A DNA stretch of 64,000 nucleotides from Rhizophagus irregularis (taxonomy: Eukaryota; Glomeromycota; Glomeromycetes; Glomerales; Glomeraceae): positions 746,501-810,500 of the forward strand of contig NC_089453.1 in assembly GCF_026210795.1 (NCBI RefSeq). Reading direction: 5' to 3'. The translations under genes and the position numbers were made by a program. Positions 1 through 32,490 of this stretch are shown in pieces. Numbering within the stretch: position 1 is the stretch's first letter; every line of letters starts with the position of its first letter. The notes below the pieces were generated by a model, which saw only the letters and a list, made by a program, of their open reading frames with translations, ran no database searches and was not told where the DNA came from.

Positions 1-8305
<8,305 letters not shown>

Positions 8306-9486: not shown

Positions 9487-9890
9487 GAGTTTTTTTTACG
9501 TTTCCAATAGTTTTTTAATAGTTTTTACGTTTTTTACGTTTTTTACGTTTCCATTGAGTTTCTTACGTTTCTTACGTTTCTTTCGTTTTTTACGTTTTTT
9601 TACGTTTCCATTGAGTTTCTTACGTTTCTTACGTTTCTTTCGTTTCTTACGTTTTTTACGTTTCCATTGAGTTTCTTACGTTTTTTACGTTTCCATCGAG
9701 TTTCTTACGTTTCTTACGTTTTTTACGTTTCCATCGAGTTTCTTACGTTTTTTACGTTTCCATTGAGTTTCTTACGTTTCCAATGGTTTTTTACGTTTCT
9801 TACTTTCCATTGAGTTACGTTTTTACGTTTCCGGTTTTACGTTTCCATTAAGTTTTTTACGTTCCACTAAGTTTCTTACGTTTCCAATAG
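9487..9890. repeat. ACGTTTC(T) minisatellite (T-rich strand)
   Basis: About 400 bp built from ttacgttt, tttcttacg and tttccattgag modules in variable order. The longer period 'tttccattgagtttcttacg' recurs at least five times. No coding sense. Confidence 0.85.
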
Positions 9891-9937
9891 TTAACAATCA
9901 ATCGTTAATTCAATCTTTGATTAACAGACGTGGTACG

Positions 9938-10235
9938 GAACAATGAAACGTGAAGAAAAATATAACGTGAAGAAAAACGTAACGTAACGTGAAGAAAAAT
10001 ATAACGTAACGTGAAGAAAAATATAACGTAACGTGAAGAAAAATATAACGTAACGTGAAGAAAAATATAACGTAACGTGAAGAAAAAATATAACGTGAAG
10101 AAAAACGTAACGTAACGTGAAGAAAAAATATAACGTGAAGAAAAACGTAACGTAACGTGAAGAAAATATAACGTAACGTGAAGAAAAACGAAAAACGTAA
10201 CGTAAAGGAAAACGTAACACGTAACGTGAAGTAAA
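9938..10235. repeat. AACGTAACGTGAAGAAAAAT tandem array (A-rich strand)
   Basis: About 300 bp of units of 20-22 bp combining aacgtaacgt with gaagaaaaa(tat). It sits 48 bp after the T-rich ACGT array and is roughly its complement in composition. Long open frames read on the minus strand are repeat artefacts. Confidence 0.85.
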
Positions 10236-14000: not shown

Positions 14001-14795
14001 ATTTTTTTAAGGGGGATAATGTAACCTCTGTAACCGCTCGGAGAATGTTGGAACAAAGAAATTTTTATTAATCATTGATGATAAGTAAAAAAAATGCATC
14101 ATAATCTTGATTTATTCTTGTTATGTATACTTTGTATTATAAAAACTGGTTTTTACTTGTTTATTGCATACCCATTAAACTTGGTCATACCTTTTTGCTT
14201 TCAGCCTACTGATTTTTTTGGCGGGAATTTCCGTGTTTATTCCGTGTAACATTCATGTTCTTTTTTATCCTTGGTAAAAAAAAAATCCTTTCTCTATATC
14301 ACGTGTTACGTGTGAAGTTTTTAATAATCGCGAATACCCCCCCGGCTATAATTTATCCCACGGAGATTAACAATCATGTAAATCCAGAATAAAACAAGAT
14401 ATTCGTCGGGCAGCTGTCAAAATTATATATATTTATATATTTTATATATACTTCATATATGATATTTTTATATTCCACAAATTTAAAAAAAGTTTAAGGG
14501 ATTTACTAATTTAATTAAATAAAAATTTTTAAAAACAAAATAACCATTTGTAGTATTAAAATCCGATGAAAACTTTTTTTTTTTTATTATTATTACTTGT
14601 TTGCTTATTTATATAAAAAAAGAGGAAATTTTTCGAAGGATCTGCATCGACATTTGCGACATTATGGGATGATCAAATAAATAAACCATCAAACGATGTT
14701 TTTGAACCCTATTATTTACTGAAACATATATATGGTTGATCATCAAAAAGAATTTTCATTCATTGTTATCTACTTTTCGTATTATAAGGGGTGAT
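11059..14795. other. AT-rich gene-free region with simple repeats
   Basis: TTTA-type runs lie at 11310-11395, ATTATTTT units at 11490-11585, mirror-like poly-A/poly-T blocks at 11825-12140, a CTACAGTTCTACAATT minisatellite at about 12775-12895, CAGTACGTAA and ATAAACATTC units at 13140-13200, and AAC triplets at 13205-13262. Open frames here are homopolymer-driven. No gene seen. Confidence 0.6.
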
Positions 14796-14935
14796 TATAT
14801 GATTATATGATTATATGTGTTTATATGATTATATGGTTATACGATATTATATGATTATATACGATTATATGGTTATATGATTATATGATACCACATGGAT
14901 TATACTGTATATGATTATATGATTATATGATTACA
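14796..14935. repeat. GATTATAT microsatellite
   Basis: Roughly fifteen imperfect copies of the 8-9 bp unit atgattat, with scattered G and C substitutions. Confidence 0.85.
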
Positions 14936-15349
14936 TGTCCTTTTTTTGGTGATTATGTTACAAATTTGGATCGAAAAATAAATATTTTATATAGGAATTT
15001 TACGAATATTTCTTACCAAGTTTAGAACTTGAAAAAAGGGGGGGAGGGATGAAATATGAAATTTTATTGTTTATTATCCTATTATCCTATCTACTATTTA
15101 TTATTTATTTATTTATTTTAAGAACCCGGTGAATTTTATTTATTATATTTTCCGTAATATTGAAATGAGAAACCGGTTTTTTTCTTTCATTAAAACAGGT
15201 TTTATTATTTATCAATAGTAAATTTTTGGTTAAAAAGAAATTTTTATAATAATCAAATAATATCATTATTGATTTATTATCCAATTTTTTTGGACTTCGA
15301 GTCTCTATGATGATCTCACATTACCTCACGTGCTATTTTTATTTGCAGA

Positions 15350-15645
15350 ACGAAAATCTTGTGAATGTGTAAATATGTGGAAAAGTGGAATCTTGTGAAT
15401 ATGTGAAATATGTGGAATCTTGTAAATATACAAAATCTTGTGATTATACAAAATCTTGTAAATATACAAAATCTTGTGAATATACAAAATCTTGCGAATA
15501 TGTGGAAAAGTGAATCTTGTGAATATGTGAAATATATGGAATCTTGTAAATATACAAAATCTTGCGAATATACAAAATCTTGCGAATATACAAAATCTTG
15601 TGATTATACAAAATCTTGTAAATATACAAAATCTTGTGAATATGT
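15350..15645. repeat. 18 bp tandem repeat (CTTGTGAATATACAAAAT)
   Basis: About a dozen units of 18 bp, with a diverged block (aatatgtggaaaagtg) that occurs twice, which points to duplication of a composite block. Because 18 is divisible by three the array stays open in frame and spells a YTKSCE-like repeat. I take this as a side effect of the period, not a gene. Confidence 0.8.
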
Positions 15646-15928: not shown

Positions 15929-16969
15929 ATAACCAATTTTTTATACAAGTACGAATATCAAAGATATTTTGACATGTAGATGGATGGTGTTTGGGAAATT
16001 TCCATTTGAAATTGAGATTTTTCAATAACTTTTTCAGCTAATCCATGTTAGAATAAAATGAGCGATTCTTTGAATTGAAATGCTTCAAGATCCGTTACCA
16101 ATCCGGTTAAGGTAAAAAGAATTGATAAGAGAACAAAGATGAGTAAAGTGATACGACCTTATTGAGTATTTTAGGAGTAAAAGTAAGTTAAAAAATGAAT
16201 TTTTATTTGAATTTACAATTTTTGAATTTTTGGAATTTTTTTTTTGGTCATATATTTTTAAATATCATCGTAAAAATATCATCTATTGATACTAGTATTT
16301 GATAGTAAAAGTAATATATTTAGAATTTTTTTTGAAACTTCGTGTCTTTAGACTTTTTTAGACTTATTATCATGATCTTTTGTGGCTAAATTTTCCATAA
16401 AAGTTATAGAAAGCCGGAATTGTCAAATTTTTAAGTCGGAAATTTTCTGATAATCTATTTATTTTAATCGTATATACTGTATATGTACAGTATTATTATT
16501 TATGAAATCCGTTAAAAAAATTCATTCGAAATAAGTGTATATATATATATATATATTATATTTTGGAAGGTAAAATAGCGTTTAATAATTGTTTGATTTA
16601 TTAATTGACGTTTACAAATTCTGTTGATAATATTGATGATAAATTTTAGCAGCTTAATGTAAATATATCTGCTACCGCAGTAAGGAAGAATTTTGTTATC
16701 GTAAAACAAATTTTTGCGGAATTTATAGATTAAAATATTATTCAAAGTTTATAAACTTATTTTTATCCAAAATTCGATTAAAATTTTAAAATAAAACAAA
16801 ATAAAATCATATTTTATTAGACTCAATCATTTATCATGTATAGTTTTCACAAAATTAAAACATTATTAACTAATCATTTACCAATTTTTAGTACTAATTT
16901 TTTGTCTCACAAATAATTAACCATGAGAATGTTAACCCGTAGACTCATTGAATAAGGGGATTAACGCAG

Positions 16970-17135
16970 TGTTGTACATTGGACATTGTCCGGCGATTTT
17001 TTGTGGACACGGACGTCCGAAAAATCCATGTCCGCGTCCATAGTCCGCGGACTCTCCGGACACAAGCTGTTAACTAGCGGATATGTACCGGACTGTACGG
17101 TCCGGGACTGTCCAATGTCCGTGTCCCATGACAAA
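16970..17135. repeat. GC-rich foldback sequence with reiterated GTCC/GGAC
   Basis: About 165 bp of far higher GC than its surroundings. Outer arms are cattggacattgtccgg and ccgggactgtccaatg; inside there are many short GTCCG/CGGAC inversions, including tccgcgga. A similar open frame can be read on both strands, as expected of a palindrome, so I do not call a gene. Probable MITE. Confidence 0.7.
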
Positions 17136-18540
17136 CACTGGATTACGATTAACGTAACCATAAAATTGACACCATTAACATTTCAGGACTTATGAATAAG
17201 AAATTACACTGACTCTCTCATCATCCCTCTATAAAAAAGTCTATAAAAAAAAAATAAACTAATTAATTAATTAATTCAAAAATTATTTTACATTATCTTA
17301 CCATTCAAATAAAACTGTCGGATCTTTCGTTGCTCTGCGCCGCGCTTCGCATGTTGCGACGACTCTATAATTTGTTGAGCGCGGCTGCTTCATTCTCAAA
17401 ATGAAAGCCATGGTATAATTGGCGGTTGACTTTACTTTTCTTCTTCCAGAACACAGAAAAAACCCAAAGACGAGGCTTAACGACTGGTAGCTTCATAGCG
17501 AATATGGCTACTGCCTACTGGTCACGATTGGATTTGTAACTTGAGACGATGAATCTGAAGTAGTAGTATCCTATAGCATTATTTAGAATTACCTATCTTC
17601 GTGTTCCTAATACATTAAGTTGACGCTGATTTTTTGTAATAATTCTATTTACAATAAACACAGGCGGTTATCCTGCAAAAATTGATAAGAGATATAAAAT
17701 TGCATCCTGTCAAATCAGTAATATTATTTTCTTATTATTTAATGCAGCACTTCGTTTCCAATAATAAATATTTATTTATTTACAGCCGTTTTCATAAGTT
17801 ATGGGACACTCCAACATTTTTGTTCAAAATTATTCGTAAAACTCGCTATATAATTTCTATCTTGTTTTGAATTTTACCGATGTCTCTCTGCATGTGATTT
17901 TGTGTAATAAAATATTTGTTAAAATATACATTTCTAATACAAATCGCGTCTCATATATCAATCTTATAAGCGGAGTAGCAATACCTTGATATTATGCACG
18001 TGTTTAAATCTCATTTTTTATTATAATCTCAGCTATAAAAAAATTATGAGTCATCTCGCAGAAAAAATTTTTTTCAATTTATCACTAAAAATCTAGATCA
18101 TGACGCAATTTTTTTATACTCTGACCATAGCAGACTCCGTGGGAAAAAAATCTTTTGTATGACATAATCTTTTTAATAGCTAACAAATTTATATAAAATA
18201 CCATCCTCTTTCTTATCATTTCCAACGTAGTAATTTCTACTTCGTAGTTTTTTTATCCTTTCCTTTAGTATTTTGTAATTTGAAACTTTTTATCTCGGAA
18301 CGAACAGTAATAAATTTTTTCGTGTTTAAGTTTAAAAAAAAATACAACAAATTTAATTTTCAGTTATAAACAATTTACTTTATTGGTTAAAATTATTTCA
18401 AACACTGTGTGAACAAAAAGTTTCTTTTTCAAAAATTATTTTATATTTGTTATATATATTTTGCTGGTTAAGACCTCTATCACATACTTTGGTGCGGTAT
18501 AGCCTATAGGACTTTGCTCTAAGTAAACTCGTCCTTAGTA
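17136..18540. other. Gene-free interval before the tandem array
   Basis: A GC-richer patch at 17318-17560 has local inversions such as gtagcttcata/tatggctac, but no tRNA fold or protein frame that I can defend. The rest is AT-rich. Confidence 0.45.
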
Positions 18541-20588
18541 TGATTTACAGGCGAAAATAAAAAGAGGTAAGAGACCGGTTCCTTACTAATAACACACGCG
18601 TCATCTCAGGATACCGAATCATTATAATTTAATGGTTAAATTATAATGAGGGTACCGCGAAATCTTCTCTTACATGGCAGGACCATGATAAGGATCCTCA
18701 TACGCATACTTTATTGGAGGTTGGAGGAAAGTATGTTAAGTGGGGTGGTTAGTATCTGATTGGCGGTCCCTAATAAGGGTGACGTTAAATTCCTTGATTC
18801 CTATTCGTTTTCTTGATAGATCTATTTATAAATTTCCTTTTGCTAATTGTCGTTACAGTGACCCGTGTTACTTATACATCGGTACTCTTTGATTTTATAG
18901 GTAATTTTCTGATAATCGGTAGATCCTAAGTCATATCATCTTTCTCCTTCTCTCTCACAGAATAGTGTTATCACTGCTATGCAAGGGCCCTTGCTAATTT
19001 ACATTCATGATTTTGTCCTGCTACTGTAATTCAACCATGTTCAAGATTATTCGGAAAACAAAAAAAGATCTAAAGAAAAGAGGACTTTTAGTAAAACATC
19101 TTTAATTGATTTACAGCCAGAAGTAAAACAAGGTAAGAGACCTGTTCCTTACTGATAACACATGCGTCATCTCAGGATACCGAATCATTATAATTTAATG
19201 GTTAAATTATAATGAGGGTACCGCGAAATCTTCTCTTACATGGCAGGACCATGATAAGGATCCTCATACGCATACTTTATTGGAGGTTGGAGGAAAGTAT
19301 GTTAAGTGGGGTGGTTAGTATCTGATTGGCAATCCCTAATAAGGGTGACGTTAAATTCCTTGATTCCTATTCGTTTTCTTGATAGATCTATTTATAAATT
19401 TCCTTTTGCTAATTAATCGTTACAGTGACCCGTGTTACTTATACATCGGTACTCTTTGATTTTATAGGTAATTTTCTGATAATCGGTAGATCCTAAGTCA
19501 TATCATCTTTCTCCTTCTCTCTCACAGAATAGTGTTATCACTGCTATGCAAGGGCCCTTGCTAATTTACATTCATGATTTTGTCCTGCTACTGTAATTCA
19601 ACCATGTTCAAGATTATTCGGAAAATAAAAAAAGATCTAAAGAAAAGAGGCCTTTTAGTAAAACATCTTTAATTGATTTACAGCCAGAAGTAAAACAAGG
19701 TAAGAGACCTGTTCCTTACTGATAACACATGCGTCATCTCAGGATACCGAATCATTATAATTTAATGGTTAAATTATAATGAGGGTACCGCGAAATCTTC
19801 TCTTACATGGCAGGACCATGATAAGGATCCTCATACGCATACTTTATTGGAGGTTGGAGGAAAGTATGTTAAGTGGGGTGGTTAGTATCTGATTGGCGGT
19901 CCCTAATAAGGGTGACGTTAAATTCCTTAATTCCTATTCGTTTTCTTGATAGATCTATTTATAAATTTCCTTTTGCTAATTGTCGTTACAGTGACCCGTG
20001 TTACTTATACATCGGTACTCTTTGATTTTATAGGTAATTTTCTGATAATCGGTAGATCCTAAGTCATATCTTCTCTCTCACAGAATAGTGTTATCACTGC
20101 TATGCAAGGGCCCTTACTACATTCATGATTTTGTCCTGCTACTGTAATTCAACCATGTTCAAGATTATTCGGAAAACAAAAAAAAGATCTAAAGAAAAGA
20201 GGACTTTTAGTAAAACATCTTTAATTGATTTACAGCCAGAAGTAAAACAAGGTAAGAGACCTGTTCCTTACTGATAACACATGCGTCATCTCAGGATACC
20301 GAATCATTATAATTTAATGGTTAAATTATAATGAGGGTACCGCGAAATCTTCTCTTACATGGCAGGACCATGATAAGGATCCTCATACGCATACTTTATT
20401 GGAGGTTGGAGGAAAGTATGTTAAGTGGGGTGGTTAGTATCTGATTGGCGGTCCCTAATAAGGGTGACGTTAAATTCCTTAATTCCTATTCGTTTTCTTG
20501 ATAGATCTATTTATAAATTTCCTTTTGCTAATTAATCGTTACAGTGACCCGTGTTACTTATACATCGGTACTCTTTAATTTTATAGGT
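18541..20588. repeat. Tandem array, 3.6 copies of a 552-567 bp hairpin-rich non-coding unit
   Basis: Units begin at 18541, 19107, 19674 and 20226 (lengths 566, 567, 552 and a truncated 363). Copies are almost identical except for the first 35 bp of unit 1. The 15 bp shortfall of unit 3 is explained by two small deletions. No frame of 60 codons is open in any unit. Each full unit carries perfect inverted repeats: 14 bp arms with a 3 base loop (18619-18649 in unit 1), CATGG/CCATG (18673-18687), CATACTTT/AAAGTATG (18705-18735), a GTCCCT/AGGG-GAC stem, and the 14 bp palindrome GCAAGGGCCCTTGC in units 1 and 2. The array is more GC-rich than its flanks. It may encode a structured RNA or be a satellite. 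I do not recognise it. Confidence 0.9.
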
Positions 20589-22943
20589 ATAAATCAGTAG
20601 ATCCCGCCAAATTCAGGTCGATATGATTGATAAAGTCAATAATTTTTTATCATCTTTAATTTCATTATATTTTATTATATTTTAAATATTAAAAATGATG
20701 ATTTTTGCAAACGTTTTTTAATTATTGCACACTTTCAACATTTTTAGTAAAAGATGTACAGTACATTAATAAAATAGCTGTTGATTAATTTAATTTTTGC
20801 AAAGTAAAAAATGTATATATATATAATGAATAATAATACATAGTTAAAAATTTACTATGTCTAATTAACAAAAATATTTACTAATATTCGGATATTTTTG
20901 CATTCTTATTAAATTCTAATAATTGATCTGTGTCAAGTTTTCGATATACTGTTTGAAGAAATCTTTTAATCATATCAAGATTCTTTCGCCCATCTTAAAA
21001 TATTACAAAATATACATTTTTTACTTGAGAATAATATATAGAGCTGAACTCTGTTTTATCCCGTCACTTGGTCTTTACATTATTAATAAATTTTCTTTTT
21101 CGGTATTATTTTTACTTTCTTAATGTTAAAATTAGTATATTGAGCATAAGAGAATGAATTAATTTTCGATAAATTTTTTTTTATCATTTTTTTTCGAAAA
21201 TAATTTGATAACTTAATGCTTTAATTGATACTTAGACTTATTCCTGTTTTATATTAAGAGTATGAAGAAGATAAAAGTGTTTCTAAAATAAAGTCGACAA
21301 CATAAAAGGAGGGTAAAGAGAGTAGAATAGTAAATTTTATTGACTGCTTGAAAATTTTTTTTTCATATACTGCATTAAATCCTTCTAGTATTGCTGGCAT
21401 TAGATGGTGTACCCGCGGTATCTTGTGCAGTGCGGTGCGATATTTTATGAAGAATATCGATATACTGTATATATATATGTATTTTAAAAAGAAACTTTTT
21501 TCCTTAGCTGTAGAAAGAGGAGGAGATGGAAGTAATCATACACACATTAAAGCATAGTTCCTGCACGACACTACTATTTCTTGTTTCTTGTCAGATTTGT
21601 ATAGTAACTACTTGACAACATTAGCCTTAATAGAATAACCATTTTTTTAGGAAGATAATTCTTGTTAACGACCATAATTCAGAAGGCCATTTTTAATAGT
21701 TAATATATAAAGTCTCTTATGCTACACCATATATATTAAGACCTAAATGTTAAAATTATTGGAGTTAATTATAAAAATTGCATAAACGGTCTCGTCAACC
21801 CGATAATATTATTATTGTATGATTAAACCAATTAAACTATATAGTTTAAATCATCCAATAATACAGGCAGCTGGAATGATACTTAGATCTCTATTAGTGA
21901 ATTTTTCTTTTTAGTTTGTTTTTGATCGTAAATGAAATATTATTGGGTACTCACTTCTGGGTTTAAAGGTTTGTCTTAATTTCTCACAAATTTGCTTAGA
22001 ATCTTTTGTACCCTTAAAATATCGTTTAAGATGAATCAATTAATGTCTTTATTAACGCTATATTATTTATAAGTTGGATAATAACCTATCCTCATGAAGA
22101 ATAGTTTAATTTGATAATATAATATTTTAAATGATAACAGCTATAAATAATTTTTATTATACAAATCACAGTAATTAATAATGTGGCTTATATCAAAAAT
22201 CCCATCTTTCTTTTCAATAGTATTCTGTATTTCGTAATTTTCCTCCTACAATTTTTTTTTACTATTATCACTTCTTTACACCTTTTGTTCTAAATATTTC
22301 TTATTACAATTGTATATAATTAACCATTAATTTTAAATCGTGATGATTTAACATTGTAGTTTCAGTTTTTTTTTTATTTGTAAATAGGTATAGGTGGTGG
22401 TGAGCAACTAAATGTTGGCCAATTCGGCCATTCCGTCCTAACAGCTTTTTTTTTTTAAAAAAAAAAATCGTTTTAAAGCCTAGCAAGTTAGGGAAAATAA
22501 AGTTTAAGTTAAAAAAGTGTTGTGCAAGTTTCGCATATAAAATATCTTTATGATGACGGTTTGATTTAACAATTCTAAAGATTACCGCAGATTTTCATAT
22601 CTGGAAAATTACATTTTTGCAGATTGCCACGGATTTTTGTATTGAAAAATTACAACGTTCTCCATTTTTTTTTAAAAAAATTGGCCGATTTTTGTTAGAA
22701 ATTATAAATTTCTATTTGTGATGCTGAAAATGATCTTACGCATTGTATCATATCGTATCGCCCAATGATCAAAAATAAGTGATAGATATTCCTTGCCCTT
22801 CTACTCTTTTCTCAATAGTATTTTTCGAGATCTACTCGAGAGCTGTTTTGTAACTTCTTTTATGAGCATTTACTGAGCCTTACGTTCTTTGTAAAGGTTT
22901 TTGAATCCTAAACGAATAATATCTCTCGATTTGATCTTCAGCC
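20589..22943. other. AT-rich gene-free region
   Basis: No convincing gene. A short palindrome lies at about 21806-21861 (attattg...caataat with ttaaactat/atagtttaa at the centre). Other frames are short and have no recognisable protein content. Confidence 0.5.
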
Positions 22944-28646: not shown

Positions 28647-28784
28647 AACCCTTAATATGGCGTCATCATAAGACAGGAATAGTATAAGTACAACATAGAA
28701 CAAATCTAAATTTATACGTAACATACGACTTATATAGGGTTTATAAAAAAACCCAATTTTGAATTATTTTTTTTTTTTCAAGAA

Positions 28785-29654
28785 ATGACATTAGCAAAAG
28801 ATTTAGAGATATTAATAAACAATCCAAAGTTTAGTGATATTGAAATTTTTTGTGAAAATGAAAAGAAATTATATGGTTGTAGAGCAATTTTAGCAGTAAG
28901 ATCCAATGTATTTTATAAACTACTTTATAATGGAAGGTATGAATCCCAAATTTCTTTTCCAAATATTAGTTCTTTTGGAATGGAGATTGTATTTGAGTAT
29001 ATTTATACGGGGTCAATTAAAGAAGAATCTTTAACAAAAGGCAATATACTTGAAGCTTTTTACGCTGCAGACTATTTTCAGTTATCAGGAATTCAGAGGA
29101 TTATTATTGTGAAAACTTACAAAGATACACTAGAAAAAAGTTGTAATGAAAACTATTCACCGGAAATATTGTCTAAACTTGCGGAGACAATACCATTAAC
29201 AGATGATAATATTTTTCTAAGTTCATTGGTTGATGCAATGGCAGTTATTCCGTTGAATACCATTGAATTTGGTCGATTGTCCATTAAAGGTCTTCGTTAT
29301 TTTTTATCTTGTACAGAAAAGCCTTTTACAACCCCAGAATATGAAGTTTTTCGATACAGTGCTATTCTTGCAGCGAAACAAGTTTCTGATGATGCATATA
29401 AATTTTTTATGGAACGGTTACCAACCTTAGAACAAATAGAACAAAATGAAAACTTATTACAACCAGAAATTAAATTTATTACCGATCATCAAAAAGTTGC
29501 TAAAGAACTGGAGCCTTTGACTGAATTTATTGATTTCAGGCGAATTAAGGGTCAAATATTGGTTGATATTATCGAGCCACTAGAAATTGTTCCAGCTAAA
29601 ATACTTTTAAAATCAAATGATTCCAATTTAAATAATAGATTATGTTTGGGATAA
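28785..29654 (+). CDS. BTB-BACK protein, C-terminal domain broken off
   Basis: Single exon, 289 aa, from the first ATG after a T-rich leader. Residues about 8-110 form a BTB/POZ domain: FSDIEIFCENEKKLYGCRAILAVRS, FYKLLYNGRYE and IVFEYIYTGSI are classic. A BACK-type helical region follows (about 118-215), ending near the conserved YEVFRYSAILAAKQV. BTB-BACK proteins usually act as substrate adaptors for cullin-3 ubiquitin ligases. The frame stops at 29652-29654 (TAA), exactly where relatives continue into a SPRY-like module. In a shifted frame the next 200 bp still read VWDKSAC and then EWDVIIEKACNDSWVRV, so the tail was lost by a frameshift. The protein may still work as a shorter BTB-BACK form. 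Confidence 0.85.
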   Translation: MTLAKDLEILINNPKFSDIEIFCENEKKLYGCRAILAVRSNVFYKLLYNGRYESQISFPNISSFGMEIVFEYIYTGSIKEESLTKGNILEAFYAADYFQLSGIQRIIIVKTYKDTLEKSCNENYSPEILSKLAETIPLTDDNIFLSSLVDAMAVIPLNTIEFGRLSIKGLRYFLSCTEKPFTTPEYEVFRYSAILAAKQVSDDAYKFFMERLPTLEQIEQNENLLQPEIKFITDHQKVAKELEPLTEFIDFRRIKGQILVDIIEPLEIVPAKILLKSNDSNLNNRLCLG

Positions 29655-29853
29655 ATCAGCATGTGAGATCAAATGTTATTATTAAGGATGTACAAGTAGT
29701 TTAGTAGGTGAAAGTGCTAGAGCTAAAAAAGCATTAGAAAATAATGATATTTTTGAATGGGATGTTATTATTGAGAAAGCTTGTAATGATTCTTGGGTTA
29801 GAGTATGTACATCAGAAAATTTCAATTATGAAATCTGGGCAGGTTGTGAATAA
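29640..29853 (+). pseudogene. Detached SPRY-like tail of the BTB-BACK gene
   Basis: Frame +1 relative to the upstream CDS. It reads DYVWDKSAC, then an in-frame TAA at about 29680, then GESARAKKALENNDIFEW, DVIIEKACNDSWVRVCTSEN and NFNYEIWAGCE before a stop at 29851. This matches the SPRY-like C-terminal half found on Glomeromycete BTB-BACK proteins, and it is cut short after the WAG motif. There are three lesions: a frameshift near 29640, an internal stop and a premature end. It gives good evidence of the ancestral length. Confidence 0.7.
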
Positions 29854-30998
29854 AATTCAGTTCAAACAAAATTATTTCCATCGCAACAAATTCAATGATT
29901 GATTGACTCTATTTCAAAAAAAAATTCATGATATATCTGAAAATTTAAAGCTTTTTATTGTAATTTATCTGTTTTTTGAGTGTTCAAGTCTAAAATCTTG
30001 CGATCAGTTAAATGTCTAATTAAATCAAATATTTTTTGATTTAAGGCCAATAAGGGACTTTTCTCATACCAATGAGTTAAATATAAATGATAAATACATT
30101 GCATCATGATATGTCACAATAATGTTTTTTGCTACGATAGTATTTTATCAAATATAATCGACATCAAAATGTTATTTATATCAAAAAAAAAAAAAGTAAT
30201 TCTTAAAAATAACGATAATCGTAAAAATTTACGTAAAAAAAAAGATATATGATTGTAGAGCAATGATTAAACTTGATCTTTAAGTACGTCTTCTTGTTCA
30301 AATTTTTTTTAATTATCTTAGTAAATGAAGACTGAATGTATTCAAGGTTCACTTTTGTATAAAAAAGTTAAAATGGGGGGACAAGATCTTAGGCTAAAAT
30401 CGAACTAGCCAAAGCAGGCATGCTCTCCAAGTAGAAATTTTATTACCGATCTACCTTCATAATAAGATACTGCAGACAAAATTTAGGAGATTAATATGAT
30501 CTATCCGATAATGTATATTAACGTTTCGAAATTTTCAAATAACAAAAAGCTTTCTAAGGTGAAAACTACAAAATCATTGTTAATTTTTTCTTTGATTTAA
30601 AGTCTATATTACTTATTACAGCCAGTTTCGAAAAATGTATTGAGTCGCTCACTTTCTCTGCCTTGTGTTCAACCTTGGTTGTGGTGCTTATCAAAAATTC
30701 ACGTTGCGTAGGAAGCTTACAAAAATTCAATCAATTTGCGATTTAGTTGCAAGATTTGATTTTTTTTTTTTTAGGTTCGATTAATCGGTTCCTTATAAAA
30801 AAAAGTTAAATTTAATCTGGAAAATCATTTTTGCAAATTTGGTCACATGTCATTAAAATAACAATTTTAATGTTGCACATAATACAGGGGAAAGGTATAA
30901 CTCTGGAAAATAGGGGTTCCTTTGACAACATGTAAGGTTGACGGTTGACCCATTCATTAATTATTCCTTTTTCTCTCTTACATTCTCGTGAAAAAATA
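29854..30998. other. Intergenic interval
   Basis: No gene. At 30370-30460 the minus strand has a T-arm-like hairpin (GCTAG, loop TTCGATT, TTAGC) but no complete cloverleaf. The last 150 bp precede the BTB-TLDc start. Confidence 0.5.
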
Positions 30999-32490
30999 AT
31001 GGATGATAAATTTTTACCAAAATTATCACAAAATTTGCTAGAAATTTTAAATGATGAAGAATATTATGATATTACAATTGAAGTTGGTAATGATCCTTAC
31101 GTAAAAATATTTCGTGCGCATTTGGTTATTTTACATTATCGTTCTCCTTGTTTAAAAAGAATTTTATCAACTAATAAAAAGAAAAATGATGGAAATATAA
31201 CACATATTAAATTACCAAATATTTTACCTGAAACTTTTCAAATAATTTTAAGGTATGATAAGAAAGAATTGTTAAATAACAAATAATTGTTATTTTTTAA
31301 AAACTTTTTTTGAATATCTGTATTTTAGATATATTTACGGTGGAAAAGTTCCTTTGAATGAACTTGATAGTTCAGATATAATTAAAGTCTTAATTGCCGC
31401 AAACAAACTTGGTCTTCAGGAGTTAATCACCTATTTACAATCATTTTTGGTTAAAAATAAAACAAATTGGATGGAACAAAATTTTGATTTGATACATCAA
31501 ACGAGCTTTGAAAATGATACTTTCTTAGAACTTCAAAATTATTGTGTTGATTTAATGTCCAAAGAACCAAATAAGATATTCAACACAAAAAAATTTTCCT
31601 CAATTCCAGAAAAACTTTTGATCTCAATAATTCAAAATGATAATCTTCAAATGGGTGAAGTTCAAGTTTGGGAACATGTGCTTAAATGGGGAGTTGCTCA
31701 AAATCCTGAACTTCCCTCCGATGTCACGAATTATTCGGATGATGATTTTAATACTTTAAAAAATACTTTACAACAATGCATTCCATTCATTAGATTCTAT
31801 AATTTAACTTCTAAAGAATTCTTAGATAAAATATTACCTTATGAACAAATTTTACCAAAGGAACTATATAAAGATTTATTAAAAGCTTTTATAAGTCTTT
31901 CAGATCCTAATAGCAAACCAAGTGATAAATCAAAACCTCGTATACCTAAAAAGATCGATTCAAAAAATATTAATTCAAAGATTATTACATTTCAACATAG
32001 TGAATTAATCTCAAAATGGATTGATAGATTAGAAATTACTGACATGTTAACTTCCTCATATGAATTCAATTTATTATTTCGCAGTTCTCGTGATGGATTT
32101 AATGCTAAAAAATTTCATGAATGTTGCGATAATCAACCTCGCACTGTAACAATTATTAAGGTGAAAGACAGTACCGAAATTCTTGGGGGATATAATCCAA
32201 TTGAATGGAAATCTATTGAATCTTATTATTATTCTTATAACATTACTAAAGATAGCTTTATATTCTCTTTTGATAATGATAGAATTGAAAATTACATTTT
32301 AAGTCGTACAATTAAAGAAAAAAAAGCCATAGTTAATAATTTTGATTTTGGACCATCATTTGGACCAAGTGATCTTGTTGTATGGGGATGGTTTGGTAGT
32401 TACGCTATGAAAGACTCTTATGAAAAACAGATTAGAAAAACAAAAGATAATTTTACAGTCGAAGAATGTGAAGTATTTCAAATTTTATAA
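30999..32490 (+). CDS. BTB-BACK-TLDc domain protein, two exons
   Basis: The model is join(30999..31252, 31329..32490), 471 aa. The start is the ATG that opens MDDKFLPKLSQNLLEIL; the frame is open 18 codons further up without a better start. The intron (76 bp, gtatga...tttag) splits an Arg codon just before YIYGG, a typical site in this family. The BTB/POZ domain covers about 10-120 (YYDITIEVGND, FRAHLVILHYRSPCLKRIL, YIYGGKVPL), the BACK region about 130-230 (WEHVLKWGVAQNPEL), a Ser/Lys-rich linker follows, and a TLDc domain spans about 300-471 (ITFQHSELISKWI, FNLLFRSSRDGFNAKKFHE, GGYNPIEW, GPSFGPSDLVVWG). BTB points to cullin-3 adaptor use; TLDc is linked to oxidative-stress resistance and V-ATPase binding. 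The family is strongly expanded in Rhizophagus. No defect seen. Confidence 0.95.
31253..31328 (+). other. Intron of the BTB-TLDc gene
   Basis: GT-AG intron of 76 bp. It is phase 2, and its removal restores the Arg-Tyr-Ile-Tyr-Gly-Gly junction conserved in the BTB domain. Confidence 0.9.

Follow-up and report, generated by a model that had tools for sequence, protein, structure and literature searches.

A dispersed, locally tandem repeat with an intron-like core in the arbuscular mycorrhizal fungus Rhizophagus irregularis

Within the Rhizophagus irregularis genome (assembly GCF_026210795.1), a 64,000-nucleotide stretch of contig NC_089453.1 (positions 746,501 to 810,500, forward strand; hereafter the window, from whose first base positions are counted) contains four head-to-tail copies of one unit at 18541-20588, with start spacings of 566, 567 and 552 bp. 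What such an array might be is the question that this locus raises, a first-pass annotation having proposed either an array of structured RNA genes or a satellite kept uniform by recombination. The unit lengths given there (566, 567, 552 and 363 bp) and their coordinates match ours; the units are, as claimed, richer in GC than their surroundings (0.351-0.364, versus 0.268 and 0.244 for the two adjoining kilobases), and the array is indeed free of long frames, the longest one contained in it measuring 61 amino acids from stop to stop when frames of at least 45 amino acids are considered. The best preserved part of the repeat is a core of about 334 nt that extends from GTAAGAG to TTTTATAG.

The array, its hairpins and the structured RNA reading

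The units, cores and hairpins of the array are arranged as follows.

18541..19106, plus strand: unit 1, 566 bp
18567..18900, plus strand: core 1, GTAAGAG to TTTTATAG, intron-like, 334 nt
18619..18649, plus strand: AT-rich 14+3+14 hairpin, perfect in all four units (also 19185-19215, 19752-19782 and 20304-20334)
18705..18735, plus strand: 8+15+8 hairpin, perfect in all four units (also 19271-19301, 19838-19868 and 20390-20420)
18901..19132, plus strand: linker from core 1 to core 2, containing a 14-bp palindrome at 18981-18994
19107..19673, plus strand: unit 2, 567 bp
19133..19467, plus strand: core 2, 335 nt
19674..20225, plus strand: unit 3, 552 bp
19700..20033, plus strand: core 3, 334 nt, same sequence as the first core of a second array on this contig
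20226..20588, plus strand: unit 4, partial, 363 bp, stopping just past its core
20252..20586, plus strand: core 4, 335 nt

Elsewhere in the window, frames with BTB/POZ, BACK and TLDc domains and a forkhead domain divided between two frames lie at 28722-32490 and 6795-8305, and short-period tandem arrays at 9521-10235, 14792-14937 and 15371-15643.

Perfect inverted repeats had been described at fixed places in each full unit. This holds for the 14+3+14, 8+15+8 and 5+5+5 repeats, the last of which (CATGGCAGGACCATG) occupies the identical position in all four units; the 14-bp palindrome GCAAGGGCCCTTGC, on the other hand, is intact in two of the three full units and not in unit 3, and the partial unit 4 stops before reaching it. 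Stems of at least 14 with a short loop arose in none of 300 shuffles of unit 3, so hairpins of such length are unexpected by chance in such a unit, and four of the seven such stems in the 64-kb window are located inside the array.

Perfect hairpins in four of four units, exceeding what shuffles produce, are what would be expected of an array of structured RNA genes, yet the remaining evidence makes this proposal a very improbable one. In the covariance-model search that the annotation had suggested, no Rfam family matched at the gathering score anywhere in the whole 64-kb window; under relaxed settings (up to E 5) the only match near the array was GcvB on the minus strand, at 17.7 bits versus a gathering score of 42. 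The same search on six loci returned nothing in the repeat and one tRNA, a tRNA-Glu (CTC) gene on the minus strand at 1442-1515 of locus L046, approximately 670 bp from the second array. Folding energies of four copies are ordinary on the plus strand relative to shuffles (z -0.55, -0.02, +0.09 and +0.07) and slightly stabler on the minus strand (z -1.95, -1.10, -1.05 and -0.75). An RNAalifold consensus of 24 cores gave a covariation term of +1.18 and a two-sided change in 1 of 69 pairs, from sequences that are too alike for this comparison to have much power. Furthermore, the palindrome sits in the linker, which is complete only in the two arrays on this contig.

A tRNA-derived SINE was rejected as a candidate for want of a tRNA-like head, the only tRNA in the 6 + 20 loci being the tRNA-Glu gene of L046, outside the repeat; a short stretch in copy L017 has what we take to be a resemblance to a D-arm. 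A coding function of the core was likewise rejected given the frame-shifting indels among its copies, the widely shared frames being short and inside the core (six-frame ORFs of at least 40 amino acids from the loci, compared all against all, with the 60 most widely shared rows viewed).

Dispersed copies and their flanks

The repeat is dispersed. With unit 1 as query against 146.7 Mb in 32 contigs, the 40 candidates scored out of 50 yielded 52 matches; once merged, these mark at least 40 places that carry parts of the unit, spread over 20 of the 32 contigs. The core of copy L015 as query gave at least 44 matches (40 of 53 candidates scored). The second array, consisting of two units in inverted orientation, lies on the same contig roughly 51 kb away (C25:713680-714630), and among the matches listed it and the window array are the only ones to the whole 566 bp; all remaining matches among those listed are confined to unit positions 1-393, the dispersed portion being the first 390 bp or so of the unit. 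The linker occurs in full in these two arrays only, with two short pieces elsewhere, and linker remnants are found 3' of the core at C4:4209 and C8:3754. Tandem copies occupy 4 of the 40 places, namely the window array (four units), C25:714 (two), C9:3712 (two) and C10:3194 (two and the remnant of a third). Many copies are incomplete, either cut short or with internal deletions; the one at L054 is truncated, its match starting within the final bases of the core. Upstream of and into the match at L020 (1501-1827), a hydrophobic frame appears by eye to enter a truncated core and to find its stop in the hairpin, which makes L020 a possible exonised copy. Two of the 40 places, C16:2802017-2802145 and C16:2822017-2822145, have equal scores and are exactly 20,000 bases apart, reflecting either a duplicated stretch or a search artefact. 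Of two exact 21-mers taken from the core, one had no match in viral contigs and the other none in genome contigs searched as a prokaryote check.

These near-identical head-to-tail units resemble those of a satellite, but long arrays of many units are not seen, four units being the maximum among at least 40 places. By one account of reptile genomes (PMC10702118), SINE-derived satellites are similar in that a portion of a dispersed repeat has been amplified head to tail; here, unlike there, arrays have no more than four units and SINE features are not established. Within the arrays, the variant -GTCG is carried by cores 1 and 3 and the first core at C25:714, and AATCG by cores 2 and 4 and the second core at C25:714, an alternation that suggests the doubling of a dimer.

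Twenty intact cores of 328-335 nt are present at 14 loci, together with four further copies that have deletions. The aligned cores start with GT and finish with TAG, the GT...AG ends of spliceosomal introns, although these ends had partly guided the choice of copies; L020 and L024, both truncated, and L026, which the end pattern missed, stand outside the core set, L026 being part of the alignment and of the RNAalifold run. Judged from sequence, the core ends look like splice sites. They are shared with one of two introns predicted in a reading frame at L051, which end in TTTTATAG and TTCACAG, respectively. Unlike host spliceosomal introns in general, however, the core, of about 334 nt, is repeated and shared between loci, and its splicing is predicted from its ends.

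The copies occupy two main flank contexts, A and B, labels that we assigned locus by locus; second units (L018, C9b, W2, W4 and M2) have the linker as their own 5' flank. Around the window array the flanks are of type A.

17061..18540, plus strand: upstream A-type flank, common to the C9 copy (89% identity over aligned columns, many gaps)
18190..18199, plus strand: TATA-like motif TATATAAAAT
20587..21162, plus strand: downstream A-type flank, common to the C9 copy (92% identity over aligned columns)

The upstream A region at 17061-18540 recurs at C9 and, in fragments, at other loci, and a five-copy alignment of it gives no sign of coding, indels breaking the frame. The 5' end of the homology to C9 falls inside another repeat, a GTCCGG-rich one at 16966-17142 with copies of 83-94% identity on several contigs. 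A TATA-like motif similar to that in the window is present 240-380 bp upstream in 8 of the 12 A copies examined and also in L051-L053, in DNA whose AT-richness gives other matches too. L050-L053 carry pieces of the A upstream region in the absence of an intact core, and at L051 (1370-2500) an A-type promoter-like region is followed downstream by a frame of 377 amino acids, built from repeated Ser/Asn/Asp-rich units and still open where the stretch ends.

Core and flank histories

Cores are more alike than the sequence that adjoins them. When each core was set against the 60 bp on its 5' side or the 100 bp on its 3' side in four flank groups, represented by 11, 11, 5 and 3 chosen rows, the core was the more alike in 55 of 55, 55 of 55, 10 of 10 and 3 of 3 pairs, with mean identities of 92-95% for core and 68-79% for flank, pairs that are not independent and come from copies found with unit 1 as query, which favours similar cores. 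The same core also stands in different flanks: across 25 pairs of A and B copies (5 by 5 rows), cores are 94.6% identical and flanks 51% and 48%, the 3' flanks of L014 and L019 in this comparison being linkers. The contrast shrinks when the comparison is with the C9 copy, where cores are 97.0% and 98.5% identical and flanks, which have many more gaps, 89% and 92% over aligned columns; in the A group conservation is already climbing some 50 bp ahead of the core.

Distances between cores show little or no correlation with those between flanks. On the 5' side of the A group the Mantel r is 0.52 (p 0.02), or 0.36 (p 0.12) when limited to full-length copies, and on the 3' side it is -0.13 and -0.23. 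The core tree is similarly incongruent with context. Built from 21 rows (the 24 cores minus W3, which is identical to M1, and minus L025 and L027, which have large deletions), it requires 5 context changes, compared to 5.4-5.5 with shuffled labels, and a single B clade is rejected (p-AU 0.003). Of its 18 inner branches, only two are starred, the bootstrap having not settled, and each brings the two contexts together: one unites L010 (B) with L008 and L017 (A), the other L012 and L013 (A) with L014, L018 and L019 (B). This mixing of A and B, together with the rejected B clade, points to exchange between loci. In part it is accompanied by a shared linker (L013, L014 and the C10 copies), indicating that the exchanged tract can exceed the core. 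The two arrays on the window's contig offer a case at close range, in that the second has the same linker as the first and its first core is identical to core 3, while their distant upstream flanks are 67% alike, rising to 87% in the last 54 bp. One copy, L050, has the reverse pattern: what remains of its core is 70-75% like the window, and its 3' flank matches the A query at 96% over 72 bases. With respect to the satellite proposed in the first-pass annotation, the recombination said to keep it uniform is supported, since core haplotypes are common to different flanks and one core is identical in the two arrays; a large satellite is not, the amplification being local and reaching at most four units at the places found.

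One core in two flank contexts, with intron-like ends, could also be produced by a mobile intron, or introner, that inserts alone into unrelated sites. Yet of the 28 matches to a query of joined A flanks and the 16 to one of joined B flanks, none runs across the junction without the core. Neither a clean empty site nor a spliced copy thus came to light, and the core seems not to move alone; the flanks, moreover, mostly belong to a few related families. We therefore give this explanation the least credence of those considered, and the core probably belonged to the family before the family spread.

A better-placed competitor, though still an unlikely one, is a family of spliced long non-coding RNAs turned inside out, in which the core would be a conserved functional intron or the host of a small RNA and the exons would drift. 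snoRNA host genes provide a precedent for a conserved intron between drifting exons. Under this scenario one would expect the GT...TAG ends of the aligned cores (by which copies were partly selected), the TTTTATAG end of one of the two predicted L051 introns, the TATA-like motif upstream of 8 of 12 A copies and a core that outdoes its flanks in conservation. Set against these are the lack of an Rfam match at the gathering score, the ordinary plus-strand folding energy, the many truncated copies, and the fact that exchange between loci suffices for uniformity without function. That the at least 14 loci with intact cores make up such a family in its fullest form, each core being the intron of a non-coding Pol II transcript and the whole evolving concertedly as locally tandem intron-exon units, strikes us as somewhat more doubtful still.

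Origin of the repeat and its meaning

The explanation that we consider probable is an old, non-coding, dispersed repeat that is locally tandem and homogenised by gene conversion, and our best reading of the family is an uncharacterised one with promoter-like upstream sequence. At the window locus, a segment comprising core and linker would have been duplicated in tandem, probably giving a dimer first and then four units via unequal exchange. Cores at separate loci would overwrite each other through non-allelic gene conversion or recombination, and such overwriting would keep cores alike as flanks drift. Purifying selection on intact cores may act as well. A Pol II transcript could start from near the TATA-like motif at 18190 and have the core spliced out of it; more generally, it is possible that intact copies are transcribed and spliced, because they combine intron-like ends with a promoter-like upstream region. 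Neither terminal repeats nor target-site duplications nor a transposase were found for the repeat, whose ends, judged by eye, are not clear, so that a transposon ancestry is proposed rather than shown. Gene conversion as the process at work is likewise a proposal.

In a limited search of published papers, this repeat family was not met. Two thirds of the transposable elements of R. irregularis are described as unclassified in one report (Oliveira and Corradi 2024, PMC11075540), and the family is like those unclassified repeats in being dispersed and lacking a recognised transposon protein, a likeness drawn from their description. What has been described here is thus one uncharacterised repeat family in a genome whose transposable elements are, by that report, mostly unclassified, and it presents a small and tractable example, in an arbuscular mycorrhizal fungus, of dispersed loci exchanging sequence. 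Were the core in truth a spliced, functional intron, it would further provide a handle on non-coding RNA in arbuscular mycorrhizal fungi.
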